A stretch of DNA of 64,000 nt from a virus, in the IMG/VR virus record IMGVR_UViG_3300022903_000002, positions 1 to 64,000 of that record. One strand, 5' to 3'. Under the pieces are notes generated by a model. The model did not search any database. It was not told the origin of the DNA and was given only the letters and a program-made list of their open reading frames with translations. Position numbers and translations under genes: made by a program. Below, in pieces: positions 25,733-47,985 of the stretch (the first letter of the stretch is position 1; the number at the start of each line of letters is the position of its first letter).

Positions 25733-25735
25733 TCG

Positions 25736-25784
25736 CCCGGCCTGTCCCCTGAGAGTGGGCGGCAGGCCGGGTCAGCCCACTCTC
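25736..25784 (+). promoter_or_regulatory. interleaved double inverted repeat, site A
   Basis: Helix 1: CCCGGCCTG (25736-25744) pairs with CAGGCCGGG (25763-25771). Helix 2: GAGAGTGGGC (25751-25760) pairs with GCCCACTCTC (25775-25784). Both are perfect and their order is 1-2-1'-2'. The connecting loops are short (6, 2 and 3 bases), so the two helices probably compete instead of forming a full pseudoknot. The site starts four bases after a stop codon and ends 18 bases before the next ATG. Confidence 0.65.
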
Positions 25785-25802
25785 AACCCGAAAGGCTCAG
25801 CG

Positions 25803-29959: not shown

Positions 29960-30643
29960 GTGACCGCTGACCTCCTGATGATCGTCCCGTCCCGTGGACG
30001 CCCACAGAACATCGCCGCCCTGTGGGAAGCGTGGGAGGCCACATCTGGTGGCGTCGCGGAACTCCTCGTCGCCGTCGATGACGACGACCCGGCCCTGACC
30101 GAGTATGAGCAGGTCTGCCGGGAGCGGCACATCGACCTCACTGTCGGCCCTCGCTTGCGGATGGTGCCGACCCTTAACCAGGTCGCGGCCCGGTGGGCGC
30201 CGCATTTCTTCGCGCTCGGATTCCTCGGGGATGATCATCGACCCCGGTCTACCGGGTTCGATCAGCGGTATCTCGAGACCCTCATCGAGCTCCGCACGGG
30301 CTTCGTCTACGGCAACGACCTGCTCGCCGGCGAACGCCTCCCAACTCAATTCGCACTTACTTCGGACATCGTCCAGGCCCTCGGCGCAATGATCGCCGCG
30401 CCGGTCCGGCATATGTTCGCCGACAATACGATCTGGGACCTCGGACACGCGATCGACCGAATCCGTTACCTGCCCGACGTGATTGTGGAGCACCTGCATC
30501 CGATCGCGCAGAAGGCGGACATGGATGCGGGCTACGAAGAGGTGAACGACCCGGACGCGTTCGAAGCCGACCGCCTCATCTACGCGGACTGGTACGCGAA
30601 CCAGATGCCCGCGGACGTCGCCAAGCTGAAGACGCTCCTGTGA
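29960..30643 (+). CDS. glycosyltransferase-like protein (GT-A fold)
   Basis: This 227-residue protein opens with a nucleotide-sugar-binding GT-A pattern: LLMIVPSRGRPQNIAALWEA, then ELLVAVDDDDPAL and the acidic FLGDDHRPRS, which could be the metal-binding DxD-like motif. The C-terminal part holds HMFADNTIWDLGHA. It overlaps the epimerase gene by 4 bases, so the two form a sugar-modification unit. The acceptor is unknown; the upstream repeat protein is a candidate. Confidence 0.7.
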   Translation: MTADLLMIVPSRGRPQNIAALWEAWEATSGGVAELLVAVDDDDPALTEYEQVCRERHIDLTVGPRLRMVPTLNQVAARWAPHFFALGFLGDDHRPRSTGFDQRYLETLIELRTGFVYGNDLLAGERLPTQFALTSDIVQALGAMIAAPVRHMFADNTIWDLGHAIDRIRYLPDVIVEHLHPIAQKADMDAGYEEVNDPDAFEADRLIYADWYANQMPADVAKLKTLL

Positions 30644-31542
30644 GCCGCGCACTCGTATCCGGCGGCGCGGGATTCATCGGCCGACACCTCGTCCGCGCGC
30701 TCACCGACGCAGGCTGGGACGTCACAGCGTTCGACATCTACCCGCGCAAGATCCCGAAGGTTCGTTTCAGGGACGCACGGGCGTTCTTCTCCTCGGACGC
30801 CACGACCTACGATCTCGTGGTGCATGCTGCGGCGGTGGAGCCTCACCGGTCCGCGATCGACAATTCGCCGCTGACGGTCGGTGCCGGGAACCTCGAACTC
30901 GACGCTGGCCTGTTCCAGTGGGCGGCCCGAACCAAGCCCGGCCGCGTGGTGTACCTGTCGAGCTCCGCCGCATATCCGATCTGGCTGCAGGATGGCATCC
31001 ATCCCTACCGGCTTGTCGAGAAAGACGCGAGGAAAGCGCATCAGCCGGACGCGATGTATGGCGAACTCAAGGCGATGGGGGAGCGGCTCGCATCCGCGTA
31101 CCGGCAGCAGGGCGGCATGGTGACGGTCGTAAGGCCGTTCTCTGGCTACGGCGAGGACCAGTCTGAGGACTTCCCGTTCGGCGCGTTCACCGCCCGCGCT
31201 CGCCGCCGTGACGACCCGTTCGAGGTATGGGGCGACGGAACACAGGTCCGCGACTGGATCCACGTCTCGGATGTGGTGGGTGCGATCCTCGCGGCCTACG
31301 AGCACGGCGTTGACGGCCCCGTGAACTTGGCGACCGGACGGCCCACGTCCTTCAACGAGTTGGCTCTCATGTTCGCCGCGGAGGCGGGCTACGCGCCGCA
31401 GATCAAGCACGTCCTGGACGCTCCGCGCGGTGTCGCGTACAGGGTCGGAGACCCGACACTCCTGCGGACGTTCTACGAGTGCAAGGTGACGATTGAAGAG
31501 GGCATCAGGCGGGCGCTGCCTAGCGGCGCTTGTTGTTCCTGA
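30640..31542 (+). CDS. NAD(P)-dependent nucleotide-sugar epimerase/dehydratase
   Basis: This 300-residue extended SDR enzyme has the cofactor motif SGGAGFIGRHLVRAL at residues 6-20. It also has the catalytic YGELK (Y-x3-K), a Ser-rich YLSSSAAYP just before it, and VRDWIHVSDVVGAILAAYEH, a family hallmark. It should convert an NDP-sugar for the adjacent glycosyltransferases. It is translationally coupled to the upstream transferase (ATGA-type overlap). Confidence 0.88.
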   Translation: MSRALVSGGAGFIGRHLVRALTDAGWDVTAFDIYPRKIPKVRFRDARAFFSSDATTYDLVVHAAAVEPHRSAIDNSPLTVGAGNLELDAGLFQWAARTKPGRVVYLSSSAAYPIWLQDGIHPYRLVEKDARKAHQPDAMYGELKAMGERLASAYRQQGGMVTVVRPFSGYGEDQSEDFPFGAFTARARRRDDPFEVWGDGTQVRDWIHVSDVVGAILAAYEHGVDGPVNLATGRPTSFNELALMFAAEAGYAPQIKHVLDAPRGVAYRVGDPTLLRTFYECKVTIEEGIRRALPSGACCS

Positions 31543-31627
31543 TCACCACGAACAAACTCCCCGCAGTGCTGCCGATAGTCGCAAGGATGAGCAACTCGGC
31601 TAGGTAGAGGAGCAGGTGTACGTTCAC
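31520..31627 (-). CDS. 35-residue membrane peptide, leaderless, minus strand
   Basis: Read from GTG 31627, the frame gives NVHLLLYLAELLILATIGST followed by AGSLFVVIRNNKRR: one membrane segment with a positive tail. TGGGACGAT (an extended -10) lies exactly six bases before the GTG, matching the plus-strand gene at 31685. It overlaps the end of the epimerase gene by 23 bases. It is short, so it remains a candidate. Confidence 0.45.
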   Translation of the reverse strand: MNVHLLLYLAELLILATIGSTAGSLFVVIRNNKRR

Positions 31628-31633
31628 CTGGCC

Positions 31634-31678
31634 ATCGTCCCACGGAGCAGGGCATTCGCCGGTCGCTCATGGGACAAT
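31634..31678. promoter_or_regulatory. divergent pair of extended -10 promoters for leaderless genes
   Basis: Plus strand: TGGGACAAT (31670-31678), six bases, GTG 31685. Minus strand: TGGGACGAT (31642 down to 31634), six bases, GTG 31627. Identical motif, spacing and start codon on both strands, only 27 bases apart, argue for a shared control region. No -35 is visible, as expected for extended -10 promoters. Confidence 0.6.
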
Positions 31679-31684
31679 AGAAAC

Positions 31685-31882
31685 GTGACCAGAGAGCCGA
31701 ATATGGATTGGGCCGCCCGAGTAGACGGTGAGATCATCCTCCAGATCACAGGGCCCGACGCCGAGGCAATGGTCCGCGCGGTCGCCGCCGAGCGCGGCGG
31801 TGTTGTGGCCTATCGGATAGACGAGCCGCCGAACGAGGACATCCCGTACACCCACTTTGGCCCCTGGATAGACGTCGAATGA
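31685..31882 (+). CDS. leaderless small protein, 65 aa
   Basis: GTG 31685 sits six bases after the extended -10, so the transcript should start at the codon itself. The product is acidic and compact (DWAARVDGEIILQITGPDAE; AERGGVVAYRIDEPP) and ends HFGPWIDVE. The upstream in-frame start at 31616 would precede the promoter. The function is unknown. Confidence 0.65.
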   Translation: MTREPNMDWAARVDGEIILQITGPDAEAMVRAVAAERGGVVAYRIDEPPNEDIPYTHFGPWIDVE

Positions 31883-31903
31883 CCTGACGGATCGGAGCGT
31901 GTC

Positions 31904-32140
31904 GTGTCCGCACCGAACGAACAGCCCATCTACCGGCGCCTCCGACCCCCGTCCGGAACGGCAGTGTGCGTGTCCACCCGAGACGACCGCATCACCATCG
32001 CCGTCGGCGCACGACAACGCGTCAACTGCGACCGCGAAGACGCATACGCCGTGTGGCGGGCACTGACGACGACCCTGTTCGCTGACGGCGGCACGGCCCC
32101 GAAGTGGGCGATGCGTCTACCAGAAGCCAGCAGCCGGTGA
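31904..32140 (+). CDS. hypothetical protein, 78 aa
   Basis: The GTG start follows GGAG by 7 bases. The product is beta-rich then helical (VCVSTRDDRITIAVGARQRV; AVWRALTTTLFADGG). It overlaps the glycosyltransferase start by 4 bases. Confidence 0.6.
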   Translation: MSAPNEQPIYRRLRPPSGTAVCVSTRDDRITIAVGARQRVNCDREDAYAVWRALTTTLFADGGTAPKWAMRLPEASSR

Positions 32141-32811
32141 CCATCCCGCTGATCGTGTTGACGAACGGCCGCCGCGACTGCATCTCCCAGACGATCCCCA
32201 GCATCACCAAGCACCTGACCGGCTACGGCGACATGGTCATCGTGGACGACTCCGGGGACAAGGACTATCGGGCGTGGCTTGCCGTCGAGTTCCCGGACGC
32301 TCTCGTCACTGCCGTAGCCTCGGAGGCCGCCGGGTACTGGCGGGCGATGCGGACCGTCTGGGCGATCGCCCGAGGCTCCGGAGCCGACACGGTAGTGATG
32401 TGGGAAGACGACTTCGTTCTCCTCGACGACATCGACGTAGCGTGCCTCGACCGCGTCCTCGACGAGCACCCATACCTGACACAGATCGCTCTGCGCCGGC
32501 AGCCGTGGTTCGCCAACGAGATCGCGCACGGCGGGACGCTGGAAGCCCTGGAAGTGCAGGGCCAGACGTTCGCCGAGACCAGCGACGGCAGACACCATTG
32601 GATCGAGCACCGCGCCTGCTTCACCGGCAACCCGTGCTTCATCCGGCGCAGGACATTCGAGCGCGACTGGCCCGAGGGCGCATGGTCGGAGTCCCGCTTC
32701 GGCCGGCTCCTCTTCGCCGACCCTGACGCCCGTGGCGCGTACTGGGGACGTCGCAGCGACCCGCCCCACGTGGAGCACATCGGACACGAGCGGGTCGGGA
32801 CGGAGTATTAG
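32137..32811 (+). CDS. GT-A fold glycosyltransferase (GT2-like)
   Basis: This 224-residue protein begins at the GTG overlapping the upstream stop; in-frame GTG 32104 is the alternative. The GT-A elements are PLIVLTNGRRDCISQTIPSI, MVIVDDSGD and VVMWEDDFVLLDDID, whose EDD is the likely metal site. HRACFTGNPCFIRRRTFE follows, as in small transferases. It is the second of three transferases in this region. Confidence 0.75.
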   Translation: MTIPLIVLTNGRRDCISQTIPSITKHLTGYGDMVIVDDSGDKDYRAWLAVEFPDALVTAVASEAAGYWRAMRTVWAIARGSGADTVVMWEDDFVLLDDIDVACLDRVLDEHPYLTQIALRRQPWFANEIAHGGTLEALEVQGQTFAETSDGRHHWIEHRACFTGNPCFIRRRTFERDWPEGAWSESRFGRLLFADPDARGAYWGRRSDPPHVEHIGHERVGTEY

Positions 32812-32813
32812 TA

Positions 32814-33041
32814 ATGGACAGCCTCGAAGCTCTTCAGCGGGCAGTGCTCGACGCGGAGCGCATCTACGGCATAATCCGCGACGATCTCCAGCGTCAGCTT
32901 GACGCGGATGGCCATCAGCACCTGACGCCAGAACAGATGCGCGATCCGAACGGCCGATTCATCCTCCTGGACGCGCTCACCGCGATCGTCAATGCGCGGG
33001 CCACTCAGCTATGGGCCACACAGTCACTCGACCGCTCTTAA
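32814..33041 (+). CDS. hypothetical helical protein, 75 aa
   Basis: The ATG is three bases after the glycosyltransferase stop. The product is amphipathic helix throughout (LEALQRAVLDAERIYGIIRD). No function is apparent. Confidence 0.6.
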   Translation: MDSLEALQRAVLDAERIYGIIRDDLQRQLDADGHQHLTPEQMRDPNGRFILLDALTAIVNARATQLWATQSLDRS

Positions 33042-33066
33042 AACATCTTCTGAGGTGGCTGCCGCC

Positions 33067-33630
33067 ATGGCTTTGAACGACCACGCCTCCACACTCCGCC
33101 AGGCAGCACTCGACGCCTCACAGCGCCTCCACGCCCAGATCGAAGGCGAGTTCGCTCTCCGCCCCGGCGTCGACCGCAACGAGACCACCCTCGACGCCGA
33201 ATTCGACATCCGCTCCACCGCCGAGACCTTCTACGCCTGGCTGAACGGCACCACCCACCTCAGCCTCGAACGCGGCCCAGTCACGAAGCAGACCCCCGGC
33301 AGCCCCGCCGGTACAACCCTGAACGAGGAGAGCACTGTGCAGATCCATGACGACGAGCAGTTCACCCTGTCCGTCCACACCACCGACGCCAAGGGCTTCG
33401 AAACCAGCGACCAGATCGACTGGGCCGTCGACAACACCGACGCCGTCACCCTCCAGGTCTCCGACGACGGCCGCTCCTGCACCGTCGTAGCTGGCCAGCC
33501 CGGCTCGGCCGTGATCACGGTGACGGACTCCGCCACCGACCCGGTCCTGTCCGCGACCGAAGCCGTCGACGTGGTCGCGGGCGGTACGGCGACGATCACC
33601 CTGACCGAGGGCGACGTCACCAAGCAGTAG
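33067..33630 (+). CDS. structural-type protein with Ig-like domain
   Basis: ATG 33067 follows GAGGTGG by 8 bases. Residues 1-75 are helical and may multimerise. Residues 100-180 form a Big2-like immunoglobulin domain (IDWAVDNTDAVTLQVSDDGR; CTVVAGQPGSAVITVTDSAT). Ig-like domains decorate phage capsids and tails. Being separate from the head operon, it may be an accessory surface protein. Confidence 0.65.
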   Translation: MALNDHASTLRQAALDASQRLHAQIEGEFALRPGVDRNETTLDAEFDIRSTAETFYAWLNGTTHLSLERGPVTKQTPGSPAGTTLNEESTVQIHDDEQFTLSVHTTDAKGFETSDQIDWAVDNTDAVTLQVSDDGRSCTVVAGQPGSAVITVTDSATDPVLSATEAVDVVAGGTATITLTEGDVTKQ

Positions 33631-33640
33631 GTCTCAAGCT

Positions 33641-33707
33641 CCCGGCCTGCCTCGTACTTTCTGGAAGTGGGGCGTGCGTGCGCAGGTCGGGTCAAAGCCC
33701 CACTTCC
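33641..33707 (+). promoter_or_regulatory. interleaved double inverted repeat, site B
   Basis: Helix 1: CCCGGCCTGC (33641-33650) with GCAGGTCGGG (33682-33691), 10 pairs including one G-U. Helix 2: GGAAGTGGGGC (33663-33673) with GCCCCACTTCC (33697-33707), 11 perfect pairs. The order 1-2-1'-2' matches sites A and C, and helix 1 resembles that of site A. It starts 11 bases after a stop and ends 16 bases before the next ATG. Confidence 0.65.
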
Positions 33708-33723
33708 AACTCAAGGATCGCTC

Positions 33724-34005
33724 ATGCAGAGCAAGCTTCCTGATCGCGACACTCGCGAATACGAGTGGTGGCTCGCAGGCGCTACCGCCGAGGTTGAGGC
33801 ACGCAAGGAAGGCCGCAGCAAACCCGGACTTCAGGTGCGCAGCTTCGTTGATGGGCTCGCCGAACACTATGGCGAGCTTGACGAGGCGCAGATCGCCGCA
33901 TTTGTGTTCAAGGTCTACACGGCTGGCCTGCCGCTGCGGATTCGGATCCGTCTTGCCCTGAAGGGCCCCACGTTCTCACCGCGCGGTAAGGGCAGTAATG
34001 GGTGA
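33724..34005 (+). CDS. hypothetical protein, 93 aa
   Basis: ATG 33724 follows AAGGA by 7 bases. The product is helical and charged (REYEWWLAGATAEVEARKEG; YGELDEAQIAAFVFKVYTAG). It is the first gene after site B. Function unknown. Confidence 0.6.
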   Translation: MQSKLPDRDTREYEWWLAGATAEVEARKEGRSKPGLQVRSFVDGLAEHYGELDEAQIAAFVFKVYTAGLPLRIRIRLALKGPTFSPRGKGSNG

Positions 34006-34216
34006 GCCCCGCCGCTTCTACCTCCAGCGCGATACCGACGTAACCGGCGCGAGCGGTGTCGGCCGTGTCGCTGACGGCATTCTCTGGCCCGACGGCACCG
34101 CAACCGTCCACTGGCGAGGTGAGGACAACAGCGAAGTGTCCTGGCCGACCGGAATCGCAGGCATCGAACGCCGCTCCGGCCACGGCGGTGCGACCCGCAT
34201 CGTCTGGATCGACTGA
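33998..34216 (+). CDS. hypothetical protein, 72 aa
   Basis: The product is beta-rich and reads GRVADGILWPDGTATVHWRG and TRIVWID, a compact form I associate with small actinobacterial phage proteins. It overlaps the previous gene by 8 bases. Confidence 0.6.
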   Translation: MGEPRRFYLQRDTDVTGASGVGRVADGILWPDGTATVHWRGEDNSEVSWPTGIAGIERRSGHGGATRIVWID

Positions 34217-34233
34217 CAGGGGAAGGCCAGGTC

Positions 34234-34458
34234 ATGCCAGCCCACCAGAAGGCATACCGCCGCATCTTCGACATGGTCGCCCAGGCGAAATCCAGTAGAG
34301 ACCAAGACCGCTGGCTGGATGAGGCTCTGGACCTCCGGCAGCGGGCAACAGACTGGGACGCCGACCAATGGGGTTTCAACCCCGACCTGTGGATGGAAGC
34401 CGAGCGCGCCGAACTCGCGAGCCGCGGCGGCAACGACTGGCCCCAGGAACGCGCGTGA
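34234..34458 (+). CDS. hypothetical helical protein, 74 aa
   Basis: The ATG follows GGGGAAGG. The product is helical (AYRRIFDMVAQAKSSRDQDR) with a Trp-rich end (DADQWGFNPDLWMEAERAEL). It is coupled to the next glycosyltransferase by a GTGA overlap. Confidence 0.6.
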   Translation: MPAHQKAYRRIFDMVAQAKSSRDQDRWLDEALDLRQRATDWDADQWGFNPDLWMEAERAELASRGGNDWPQERA

Positions 34459-35171
34459 GGGTCCTTGTAGCCATTCCGTGGAGACCGCAGCCTGACCGCA
34501 TCTACGCCCACGATCTGACCGTCCAGCGCTACAGGGAGCTTCTCCCCGACGCCGACATCGTGGACGTCGACACTGACCATGACCCGTTCAGCCTCGCCGC
34601 CTGCCGCAACAAGGGCGTCCGCCTCGCCGAAGGGGACGGCCACGACGTGGTCGTACTCGGCGACGCAGACACACTCGCGGAGCAGGAGCCTCTCCTCGCC
34701 GCCATCGACAGCGCGCGCAGCAGCGGCAAGGTACACCTGCCGTACACCTTCTACAGGTCCCTCGGCTTCTACGGCACCAACCAACTACTCAACGGCTTCC
34801 CGATCGAGACCTGCGACAACGTGACCATCCCCACGGCCACGAGCGGCGTCTATGTCGCCACCCCCGCGATCTGGTGGGCATGCGGCGGCCAGGACGAACG
34901 CATGCTCGGCTGGGGCATGGAAGATGTCGCGTGGCTCGTCGCCCACCGGGCGCTACTCGGCGGTGAACCTGTCCGGCATGACGGCAGCGTCTACGCACTT
35001 CACCACGAGTCCGCAGCCAAGCAAGGCGACCAGTACGAGCGGAACGTCGCGCTCTACCACCGCTACATCGAAGCTGGCGACTCCGGAAACCCCGACGCTG
35101 TACGCGCGGTCGTCGCCGAACATGCCGACGCTGTGACCTGCGGCAAGTCAACATCGTCCACCGGCGGGTAA
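34455..35171 (+). CDS. galactosyltransferase-like GT-A enzyme
   Basis: This 238-residue protein starts at a GTG overlapping the upstream stop. The GT-A features are MRVLVAIPWRPQPDRI, NKGVRLAEGDGHDVVVLGDA with a D-A-D metal motif, and MLGWGMEDVAWLVAHRAL, a G-x-G-x-E-D-x-x-x acceptor/catalytic element of GT7/GT27-like enzymes. It is the third transferase in this region. It most likely modifies a phage or host surface molecule. Confidence 0.75.
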   Translation: MRVLVAIPWRPQPDRIYAHDLTVQRYRELLPDADIVDVDTDHDPFSLAACRNKGVRLAEGDGHDVVVLGDADTLAEQEPLLAAIDSARSSGKVHLPYTFYRSLGFYGTNQLLNGFPIETCDNVTIPTATSGVYVATPAIWWACGGQDERMLGWGMEDVAWLVAHRALLGGEPVRHDGSVYALHHESAAKQGDQYERNVALYHRYIEAGDSGNPDAVRAVVAEHADAVTCGKSTSSTGG

Positions 35172-44065: not shown

Positions 44066-45052
44066 ATGCGGATCCTGGCGATGGTCGCGGCGTATCCACC
44101 TGACCGCTGTGTGGGCTCGTGGATCATGACGCATGCGCTGCTGCGGGCACTCGTCGCCCGCGGCCATCAGGCGGATGTGGTGCTCACGGCGGCGTCAGGG
44201 GCTCCGTATGCCCTCGACGGTGTGAACGTGTGGCCGCACGTCGACAAGGGCGACCCGTTCCGGTTCATTCAGGACGCCGATGTGCTGGTCGCACATGCGG
44301 AGTCCGCAGGCCGGGCGGTGGCGCTGGGGGAGATGTGGGGTGTACCGGTCGTGAGGCTGGCACACAACACGAGCCCGACCACGGAGTCGTCGATGCGTCG
44401 CCGTGCGGCGGCGCTGACGGTCTTCAACTCCCAGCACATGGCGGACCTGTTCGCCGCGGAGGCGGGACCGTCGATCGTTGTGCGTCCACCGGTCGACCCA
44501 GCGGAGTACGCGACGACACCGGGTGATCACGTCACACTCATCAACGTCACACACGACAAGGGCGCCGAGACGTTCTACTCGCTCGCCGAACGGTTCCCCG
44601 ATGTGCCGTTCCTCGGTGTTGAGGGCGGCTACGGCGTACAGGTCACCGACGACCTGCCCAACGTCGAGATCGTCCCGCACACGCCCGCGGATCGGATGCG
44701 GAACGTCGTGTATGCCCGCACCCGGGTCCTGTTGATGCCGTCCGCTTACGAGTCGTGGGGTCGTACCGGTGTTGAAGCGATGACGAGCGGCATCCCGGTT
44801 CTCGCACATCCCGCGGCCGGCCTAAAAGAGTCACTCGGCGACGCGGGCGTGTTCGTGGACCGAGACGACATCAATGGGTGGGAGCGGGAGCTCCGGCGCC
44901 TGTTGGATGGCCGCCGGTGGCGTCATGCGTCGAAACGCGCGAAGGCGCGGGCTGTCGAGCTCGACCCGTCCCCTGACCTTGCTGTGTGGTGTGCGGAGCT
45001 CGAGACGCTGGGTGCGCAACGTGCCCGGTTCCGTCCTCTCACCCGTGCCTGA
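44066..45052 (+). CDS. GT4-family glycosyltransferase in the head operon
   Basis: This 328-residue protein is a GT-B fold transferase. It has the N-terminal MRILAMVAAYPPDRCVGSWI, then VVRLAHNTSP, FNSQHMADLF and the C-terminal domain with TLINVTHDKGAETFYSLAER. The family donor-binding element is MPSAYESWGRTGVEAMTSGI followed by PVLAHPAAGLKE, including the E-x7-E-like acidic pair. ATG 44066 follows GGAGG. It lies between capsid and connector genes, so a virion target is likely. Confidence 0.85.
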   Translation: MRILAMVAAYPPDRCVGSWIMTHALLRALVARGHQADVVLTAASGAPYALDGVNVWPHVDKGDPFRFIQDADVLVAHAESAGRAVALGEMWGVPVVRLAHNTSPTTESSMRRRAAALTVFNSQHMADLFAAEAGPSIVVRPPVDPAEYATTPGDHVTLINVTHDKGAETFYSLAERFPDVPFLGVEGGYGVQVTDDLPNVEIVPHTPADRMRNVVYARTRVLLMPSAYESWGRTGVEAMTSGIPVLAHPAAGLKESLGDAGVFVDRDDINGWERELRRLLDGRRWRHASKRAKARAVELDPSPDLAVWCAELETLGAQRARFRPLTRA

Positions 45053-46690: not shown

Positions 46691-46752
46691 AGGCCCGCCA
46701 GCCTGTCCCAGCCCCGCCCGCGGGGCCACCTATCCCGCAGAGGGGAACATCC

Positions 46753-47421
46753 ATGGCTGGCGTCAGCTATGACGATCTTCAACAGCGCAATGCCGCGCTG
46801 ATCTTCAAGGCCCTGCAGGGGTCCGTGTTCGTCGCCCCGTCGAGCGTCGCAGCGATCACCGCACTGACCGACACCGACAAGCTCCTCAAGGAACTCCCCG
46901 AAGGGTACGAGGACGTCGGCTGGATCAGCGACGACGGAGCCCAGTTCTCCCGCGACACCGACACTAGCGACATCACCGGCTGGGGAAGTGTGGAGCCGCT
47001 CCGCTCGGACGTCACACAGGACACCACCACGCTGCAGATGGAAGCCCTGGAGACCAAGAAGTCGACGATCGGTCTCTACACAGGCGCCGACATGGACGCG
47101 GTGACCCCGGACCCGGTCTCCGGTGAGGTCAGCATCCAGAAGCCCGCCCGGCCCGGGTTCCGCTACTACCGGGTCCTCGCTGTTGCCGTGGACCTCACCG
47201 ATGACGGCGAGTACTACGTCGCCCGGTTCCTGCCGCGGGCCCGCGTCACGGACTACGACGACCAGAACATGCAGTCCAGCGACGACTCGCCGATCACCTG
47301 GCCTGTCACGATGACGGGCTACGAGGACCCCCTTCTCGGCTACTCGGAGAACTACCTGTTCGGAGGCCCCGGCTGGGCGACGAGGCTCGCCGCGATGGGC
47401 TTCGAGCCCATCGGCTCCTGA
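46753..47421 (+). CDS. major tail tube protein
   Basis: This 222-residue protein precedes the chaperone and tape measure genes. ATG 46753 follows AGAGGGG. Beta-rich tube features are DVGWISDDGAQFSRDTDTSD, LQMEALETKKSTIGLYTGAD, YRVLAVAVDLTDDGEYYVAR and ITWPVTMTGYEDPLLGYSEN. It polymerises into the tail tube. In the 79-base gap upstream, CGCCAGCC can pair with GGCTGGCG over the start codon. Confidence 0.88.
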   Translation: MAGVSYDDLQQRNAALIFKALQGSVFVAPSSVAAITALTDTDKLLKELPEGYEDVGWISDDGAQFSRDTDTSDITGWGSVEPLRSDVTQDTTTLQMEALETKKSTIGLYTGADMDAVTPDPVSGEVSIQKPARPGFRYYRVLAVAVDLTDDGEYYVARFLPRARVTDYDDQNMQSSDDSPITWPVTMTGYEDPLLGYSENYLFGGPGWATRLAAMGFEPIGS

Positions 47422-47424
47422 TAC

Positions 47425-47483
47425 GTCGCGGCGGCCGGTCTAGCTGGCGGGCCCCGGCCGCCGCGACTCCAAGGCCCGCCAGC
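47425..47483 (+). promoter_or_regulatory. interleaved double inverted repeat, site C
   Basis: Helix 1: GTCGCGGCGGCCGG (47425-47438) with CCGGCCGCCGCGAC (47454-47467), 14 perfect pairs. Helix 2: GCTGGCGGGCC (47443-47453) with GGCCCGCCAGC (47473-47483), 11 perfect pairs. The order is again 1-2-1'-2', starting four bases after a stop. The 5-base link between 1' and 2' is too short to span 14 pairs, so the helices should exclude each other. Confidence 0.7.
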
Positions 47484-47688: not shown

Positions 47689-47703
47689 CAGAGAGGCCCG
47701 CCA

Positions 47704-47985
47704 ATGGCCGCCAAGAAGAACCAGTTCCAGCTCGCCGTCTACCGGGCGGAGGCCGTCAAGGCGCCGTTCGAGCTGATCATCGACGAGAAGACCAGCGTCA
47801 TGATCCCGCCGCCGAGTACCGATGATGTTCTCGCCGTCGCCGAGGCGGCCACTCCGCGCGAGCAGTTGCGGCTCCTCGCCGGCGACCAGTTCGGGACACT
47901 GATGGAGCACATCAGTGATGAGCCCGGCGGGATCTTGAAGCCTCTGCTGAACGATATGACCAGTCACTTCAAGCTGGGGGAATAG
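47704..47985 (+). CDS. tail assembly chaperone, short form (G-like)
   Basis: ATG 47704 follows GAGAGG. The 93-residue product (QLAVYRAEAVKAPFELIIDE; DDVLAVAEAATPREQLRLLA; LLNDMTSHFKLGE) is the short chaperone encoded upstream of tape measure genes. It ends in a -1 frameshift site, LKLGGGAA-like DNA at 47976-47982, so a longer form is also made. Confidence 0.85.
   Translation: MAAKKNQFQLAVYRAEAVKAPFELIIDEKTSVMIPPPSTDDVLAVAEAATPREQLRLLAGDQFGTLMEHISDEPGGILKPLLNDMTSHFKLGE

Follow-up and report, generated by a model that had tools for sequence, protein, structure and literature searches.

Site B and its surroundings

The window, a 64,000-nt stretch of viral DNA, is part of a 105,082-bp virus record that carries structural genes of the actinophage type, namely those for terminase, portal, major tail protein (MTP) and tail assembly chaperone (TAC). 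Site B occupies the gap from the stop codon of one gene to the ribosome-binding site of the next, where two inverted repeats are perfectly interleaved in the order A-B-A'-B' (window 33641-33708, helices of 10 and 12 bp). Its arms and flanking genes are given below.

32992-33630, plus strand: upstream neighbour of site B, with a weak Ig-like match (Big_2)
33641-33650, plus strand: helix 1, 5' arm (a), CCCGGCCTGC, 10 nt past the stop codon TAG at 33628-33630
33662-33673, plus strand: helix 2, 5' arm (b), TGGAAGTGGGGC
33682-33691, plus strand: helix 1, 3' arm (a'), GCAGGTCGGG
33697-33708, plus strand: helix 2, 3' arm (b'), GCCCCACTTCCA; the next start codon lies 15 nt beyond the arm end
33724-34005, plus strand: gene downstream of site B, 93 aa, without a family match

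One of the 10 pairs in helix 1 is a G:U, and the loops measure 11, 8 and 5 nt. The original prediction put the helices at 10 and 11 bp; the first length is confirmed, and helix 2 carries one pair beyond the 11, so the element ends at 33708 and not at 33707. Its label of an Ig-domain gene for the upstream neighbour is weak, the Pfam family Big_2 matching at E=0.0087, short of the cutoff, and the small protein of 93 aa on the other side gave no match in the family search. A DNA similarity search with site B and its 4.5-kb surroundings against annotated phages returned nothing useful. Epimerase and galactosyltransferase-like genes are found near site B (window 30640-35171).

Interleaved repeats with S1 and S2 (helices 1 and 2) together at least 20 bp long and with short loops occur at exactly three places in the window, namely sites A (25735-25785), B and C (47425-47483). 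The three share an identical arm order, and each has a stop codon before it and the ribosome-binding site of the following co-oriented gene after it. At matched thresholds, 20 dinucleotide shuffles of the window produced 3 matches in total, or 0.15 per window. Sites A and C, which had been proposed as companions of site B, are also real. Site A is of the same element type as site B:

25735-25785, plus strand: site A (S1 11-12 bp, S2 11 bp, loops of 3, 0 and 2 nt), reaching from a TGA to the next ribosome-binding site

As had been claimed, the helix 2 changes between sites A and B (GAGAGTGGGC/GCCCACTCTC versus GGAAGTGGGGC/GCCCCACTTCC) are compensated on the opposite arm. A cluster of short repeats (GGTGGTCGCG, CCGCGTCCGG) is present in the right arm of the phage record (G000 81053-81404; L122:19053-19404).

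Relatives of sites A and B

Relatives of sites A and B, referred to here as the CCCGG type, were retrieved with the pattern CCCGGYCTG..AGTGGG..CAGRYCGGG, which fixes helix 1 on both sides and, in helix 2, the core of the 5' arm, and leaves b' free. Ten viral contigs matched, and the complete element including b' was present in nine of them; among seven matches in bacterial contigs, it was complete in three (two Actinomadura, one Microbispora). The search pattern itself accounts in part for the conservation of the cores CCCGG-CTG and AGTGGG, yet they are common to sites A and B, which were not selected by it. In a helix-registered alignment of 12 copies, both sides had changed at 5/15 positions of helix 1 and 6/14 positions of helix 2. 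The counting was done on helix-registered arms because the MAFFT alignment of this type moved the 3' arm by one column. The covariation supports both helices of the CCCGG type, and unpaired drift in relatives, which the original prediction had named as the observation that would speak against the element, was looked for and not seen. A loose hairpin pattern was also tried and rejected, the matches listed being mostly unrelated hairpins. Further interleaved repeats were noticed in relatives at L211:13101-13183 and L216:3687-3764, the one in L211 following a gene whose product has a head decoration protein-like C-terminus.

The context of the element is strand-specific, with a start codon 13-24 nt past the element in nearly all members. 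The proteins encoded downstream of the copies in G000-B, G002, G003, G004, L071, L215 and L233 have no mutual BLAST similarity; those downstream of G000-A (site A), G005 and G006 are homologous. Since the downstream genes differ between copies, the CCCGG-type element is not tied to one gene family. The earlier statement to this effect is correct insofar as this type precedes several unrelated genes, but the class as a whole is commonest at one fixed place, the junction between the MTP and TAC genes.

A wider class after the major tail protein gene

Site C is of the kind tied to the MTP/TAC junction, and sites A and B are the dispersed, pseudoknot-only variety. On its 5' side site C has the MTP gene and on its 3' side a small gene that precedes TAC.

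46753-47421, plus strand: major tail protein gene (PHROG 476)
47425-47438, plus strand: site C helix 1, 5' arm (a), GTCGCGGCGGCCGG, 3 nt past the MTP stop codon
47443-47453, plus strand: site C helix 2, 5' arm (b), GCTGGCGGGCC
47454-47467, plus strand: site C helix 1, 3' arm (a')
47473-47483, plus strand: site C helix 2, 3' arm (b'), GGCCCGCCAGC
47704-47985, plus strand: tail assembly chaperone gene (PHROG 2624)

MTP profiles retrieved 67 non-identical IMG/VR loci, and in 42 of them the A-B-A'-B' architecture follows MTP, without sequence similarity, against 1.56 in shuffles; the thresholds were set after the first examples had been seen, and the controls were run at the same thresholds. With a strict score, 36 MTP junctions qualified versus 0.05 in shuffles and 3/1,226 windows after other open-reading-frame ends, a control that includes spurious frames. 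These counts include related phages, which are not independent of one another, and go back to about ten S2 families. The post-MTP element is likewise present in the Gordonia phages GTE5, GRU1, Float294, Tracker, WhoseManz and KatherineG, in NC1 (Nocardia), EvenBluerMoon and Popper (Arthrobacter) and Brahms (Microbacterium), and in D29, Kampy, Phaded and PGHhamlin (Mycobacterium), Takoda (Rhodococcus) and Zemlya (Streptomyces).

Typical members have an S1 of 12-16 bp, an S2 of 7-13 bp and zero nt between b and a', which is the classical H-type layout. In a coaxial A-form model, both helices could form at once if 0-2 bp were frayed in most members and 3 in site A. In nine Gordonia-type members, 7/15 S1 pairs had changed on both sides with every cell paired, against 0-1 in slid controls; S2 is invariant in this alignment, and S2 covariation at MTP junctions therefore rests on the comparison between lineages.

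The other gaps of annotated phages (capsid, MuF, tape measure) held no convincing element except in REQ2, where the gap in question turned out to precede the TAC-side gene. No gap exists at the MTP of phiC31, and the one after its capsid gene holds a hairpin only. One extra gene separates MTP from the pseudoknot in ChewyVIII (L286:8699-10344) and two in REQ2 (L293:8721-10968); where genes intervene in this way, the element stays with the TAC side. A glycosyltransferase gene (PF13692) lies within the head-tail gene region of the window (44066-45052).

Helix 1 is a strong GC hairpin, and Cafasso and LeBron, which have no pseudoknot, carry plain hairpins at the same junction, as would be expected if these were ordinary intrinsic terminators in which helix 1 alone matters and helix 2 is incidental. 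Nevertheless, with S1 held fixed, an S2 of the observed length would arise by chance in only 0.88 of the 42 loci, and helix 2 covaries in the CCCGG type and has a partner at TAC (see below). In the members inspected, no U-run follows a' or b', so that the GC hairpin is not joined by the U-tract of such terminators. This reading is already disfavoured, and we regard it as very improbable.

Tail proteins with C-terminal extensions are known from other phages, and in many members the MTP stop codon lies 2-5 nt 5' of the pseudoknot, a position from which it could drive frameshifting or readthrough into a longer tail protein. Yet the lengths and frames of the possible extensions are random between members, which have no common slippery site, and in ChewyVIII and REQ2 at least one gene separates the pseudoknot from the MTP stop codon. 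A recoding stimulator is accordingly the least credible of the explanations that we considered.

A third partner at the TAC ribosome-binding site

Besides b', arm b has a second complement of 7-13 bp, b'', which lies 60-490 nt downstream at the TAC ribosome-binding site. Hence, in site C and most MTP-junction members, one arm is complementary to two mutually exclusive partners, one of them at a ribosome-binding site. The original prediction read the element as not tied to one gene family and had not seen this third partner of the MTP/TAC members. The MTP leader of the window contains a further copy of b'.

47695-47703, plus strand: b'', GGCCCGCCA, between the Shine-Dalgarno sequence and the ATG at 47704 of TAC, complementary to site C arm b over 9 bp
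46692-46702, plus strand: b''', third copy of GGCCCGCCAGC, in the MTP leader

The idea of b'' was drawn from phages in which TAC comes directly next (D29, Kampy, Takoda, Zemlya and L368-L375); the subsequent test used phages in which other genes intervene, with annotated TAC starts at a distance of 250-490 nt. The corresponding p-values were 0.001 for GTE5 (13 bp), Popper (13 bp) and Tracker, 0.002 for NC1, EvenBluerMoon and ChewyVIII, 0.005 for WhoseManz and 0.007 for Daredevil; GRU1 and Float294 also have b'' (p within 0.001-0.008), and Zarbodnamra (10 bp) and REQ2 (12 bp) carry it as well. In the window itself, p was 0.008, and TAC came first among the 73 gene starts compared. The TAC start ranked first among all gene starts in 8/8 annotated loci. 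Furthermore, the b:b'' score averaged 9.24 for own pairs versus 5.38 for mismatched phage pairs; the D29-type b pairs fairly well also with TAC starts of the site-C family, since their S2 cores are alike. The IMG/VR cases are weaker because the start was chosen there by search; 5/7 of the proteins scanned behind b'' in these contigs match TAC families. The pseudoknot-less phages Cafasso, LeBron, LittleLaf and Juicebox have no b'' at the TAC start (p 0.78-0.90), and in Brahms, where the pseudoknot is present, b'' is weak (p=0.098). A second partner of b was also sought near sites A and B and not found, and for site B there is none at any plausible start in the 105-kb record.

S2 varies widely by lineage (TGGCGGGCC, TGGTGGGCC, GGGGTGGGC, CTCCCCGGT, TCCGGGTGTGG, GGCGGACC, GATGCGGAC and GCGCGGA), and b' and b'' track its changes. 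Where b' and b'' differ from each other, at 11 positions, the pairing with b is kept at 11/11. The sequences thus establish the pairing potential and its covariation, the strand-specific position and the tie to the TAC start.

Repeated copies of this kind also raise the question of a DNA operator, in which the arms would be copies of the binding site of a phage regulator, b as an inverted copy and b', b'' and b''' as direct ones. In the site-C family, direct copies do occur near the MTP leader, downstream of MTP and where TAC starts, and stoperators, the repressor sites of Cluster A, are known from positions of this kind. However, b, b' and b'' change together between lineages with complementarity kept, and the differences between b' and b'' are all of the G:C to G:U or A:U to G:U type (11/11), which counts against an operator because such changes are relevant to RNA pairing and not to duplex DNA. 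We therefore consider an operator improbable.

Several other repeats were noticed around these sites. In the site-C family (L301, L303, L305, L307), the MTP leader contains b''' at positions -723 to -738, counted from the first base beyond the MTP stop; L327 has it there too with a changed sequence. The GCCAGCC of the window b''' could also pair with the MTP start (ATGGCTGGCG). The second-best match of the GTE5 arm b is a complementary stretch of 10 bp where the gene preceding the decoration protein gene begins (L282:3590), a possible second target. In L361, the b'' sequence GGCCCACCA stands at two successive ribosome-binding sites, +232 and +474 after the MTP stop. Just upstream of the D29 pseudoknot (L381:5582-5696) there is a CTTGACAGCCACC sequence, with a similar one after the D29 capsid gene; we take it to be a match to the Cluster A stoperator read in reverse.

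A proposed translational switch between tail tube and chaperone

From a single late transcript, phages produce tail-tube proteins by the hundred and only a few chaperone and tape-measure proteins. For the setting of this ratio in actinobacteriophages, we found no described cis element beyond the known chaperone frameshift, and the present element adjoins the tail-tube/chaperone boundary in the model phages D29 and Kampy and in most lineages tested. The best explanation, to which we give a probability of about one half on the basis of these comparisons, is an H-type RNA pseudoknot that acts as a translational switch at the MTP/TAC junction. The pseudoknot would form in the untranslated gap between two co-oriented phage genes, where a strong hairpin S1 (10-16 bp) would hold arm b in its loop and b would pair with b' just 3' of the hairpin. 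With b captured by b', the TAC start would be open; with b paired to b'', it would be closed, and the chaperone (and tape-measure-side) proteins would be kept low relative to the very abundant tail-tube protein. The balance may be shifted by ribosomes that complete the MTP gene 2-5 nt ahead of S1. Three parts of this model are inferred, namely the existence of both states in the RNA, the block to initiation by b:b'' and the cause of a shift from one state to the other. The pairing energies are of similar size (-16 to -26 kcal/mol for b:b' and -14 to -27 kcal/mol for b:b''). The OFF state (b:b'') may be rare, as proximity should usually favour b' over b''.

In its broadest form, the proposal is that of a near-universal RNA switch in long-tailed actinobacteriophages, in which the post-MTP hairpin loop would choose either its own 3' partner or the TAC ribosome-binding site and thereby fix the ratio of tail tube to chaperone and tape measure, sites A and B being the same fold re-used without a second partner. 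We offer this generalization tentatively, at slightly less than even odds. Since no b'' lies near sites A and B, the switch does not explain these two sites. Site B would act locally on the 93-aa gene, either as a barrier between the translation of two genes or as a regulatory leader, a role that we infer from class membership because no second partner was found.

RNA-seq of Kampy, which has the pseudoknot, shows the highest late expression over genes 14-22, the last of which is MTP, and a lower rise for the TAC genes 23-24 between 30 and 60 min (5.1- and 7.1-fold vs 14.4-fold) (PMC4626039). The late expression peak thus ends at MTP, as it would also do if the element were an mRNA boundary, i.e., a partial transcription stop or exonuclease block that forms the 3' end of a high-copy block from scaffold to MTP and lowers the TAC and tape-measure mRNA. 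The GTE5 record labels the place 'terminator', and the genes inserted after MTP in ChewyVIII and REQ2 are upstream of the pseudoknot, as a boundary would have it. On the other hand, neither helix has a U-tract after it, a simple hairpin would suffice for this purpose, and b'' at the TAC ribosome-binding site is not predicted. We consider a boundary unlikely, at perhaps half the weight of an even bet; it remains the main rival, since the Kampy data fit either translational control with mRNA decay or a boundary.

Alternatively, a stable pseudoknot fragment released from the late mRNA might serve as a small RNA in trans and pair through b with the mRNA of TAC or with further targets. A hairpin loop of this kind would be capable of this, and a 'pseudoknot RNA' is annotated near the start of Giles gp17; but the Giles feature is without the A-B-A'-B' pattern, and the target is on the same transcript in the phages studied here, making a trans-acting RNA very unlikely.

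Relation to known systems

A search of Rfam 15 with the window and eight member loci gave no match at the gathering score, the matches below it being at chance level, and a literature search, which mostly covered papers outside subscription, found no description of the element. The GTE5 annotation (AY846870) contains the same element after the main tail gene, entered as two overlapping stem-loops and a 'terminator'; that record does not identify a pseudoknot and notes neither conservation nor a link to the TAC start. The Giles_80 'pseudoknot RNA' (EU203571) resembles our element in being a pseudoknot RNA annotated in a mycobacteriophage tail gene region. It was rejected as a member, as our scan of the feature (L380:5908-5975, inside the start of gp17) showed no A-B-A'-B' pattern.

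The Start Associated Sequences (SAS) and extended SAS of Cluster K mycobacteriophages are repeats at start codons, some with upstream inverted repeats, for which a role in translation initiation has been proposed (PMC3203893). It is in these respects that they resemble our element. Unlike our element, in which the sequence is free to vary, the repeats are interleaved and the target is the TAC start, the SAS has a constant sequence of 13 bp and occurs in the non-structural half of the genome. This 13-bp sequence (GGGATAGGAGCCC) is absent from the start-site sequences compared for b''.

Both pseudoknot control and control by alternative pairing are known kinds of regulation. Translation is controlled by a pseudoknot in, for example, IncIalpha/IncB repZ, T4 gene 32 and rpsO. 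The structure predicted for our element is like these systems and the alternative-pairing riboregulators in having a local pseudoknot beside or upstream of a start site and one arm whose pairings are mutually exclusive; we found no sequence relation to them. In contrast to those riboregulators, the present element sits at a phage late-operon junction, and what competes for the arm is the start site of another gene, as much as about 490 nt further downstream.
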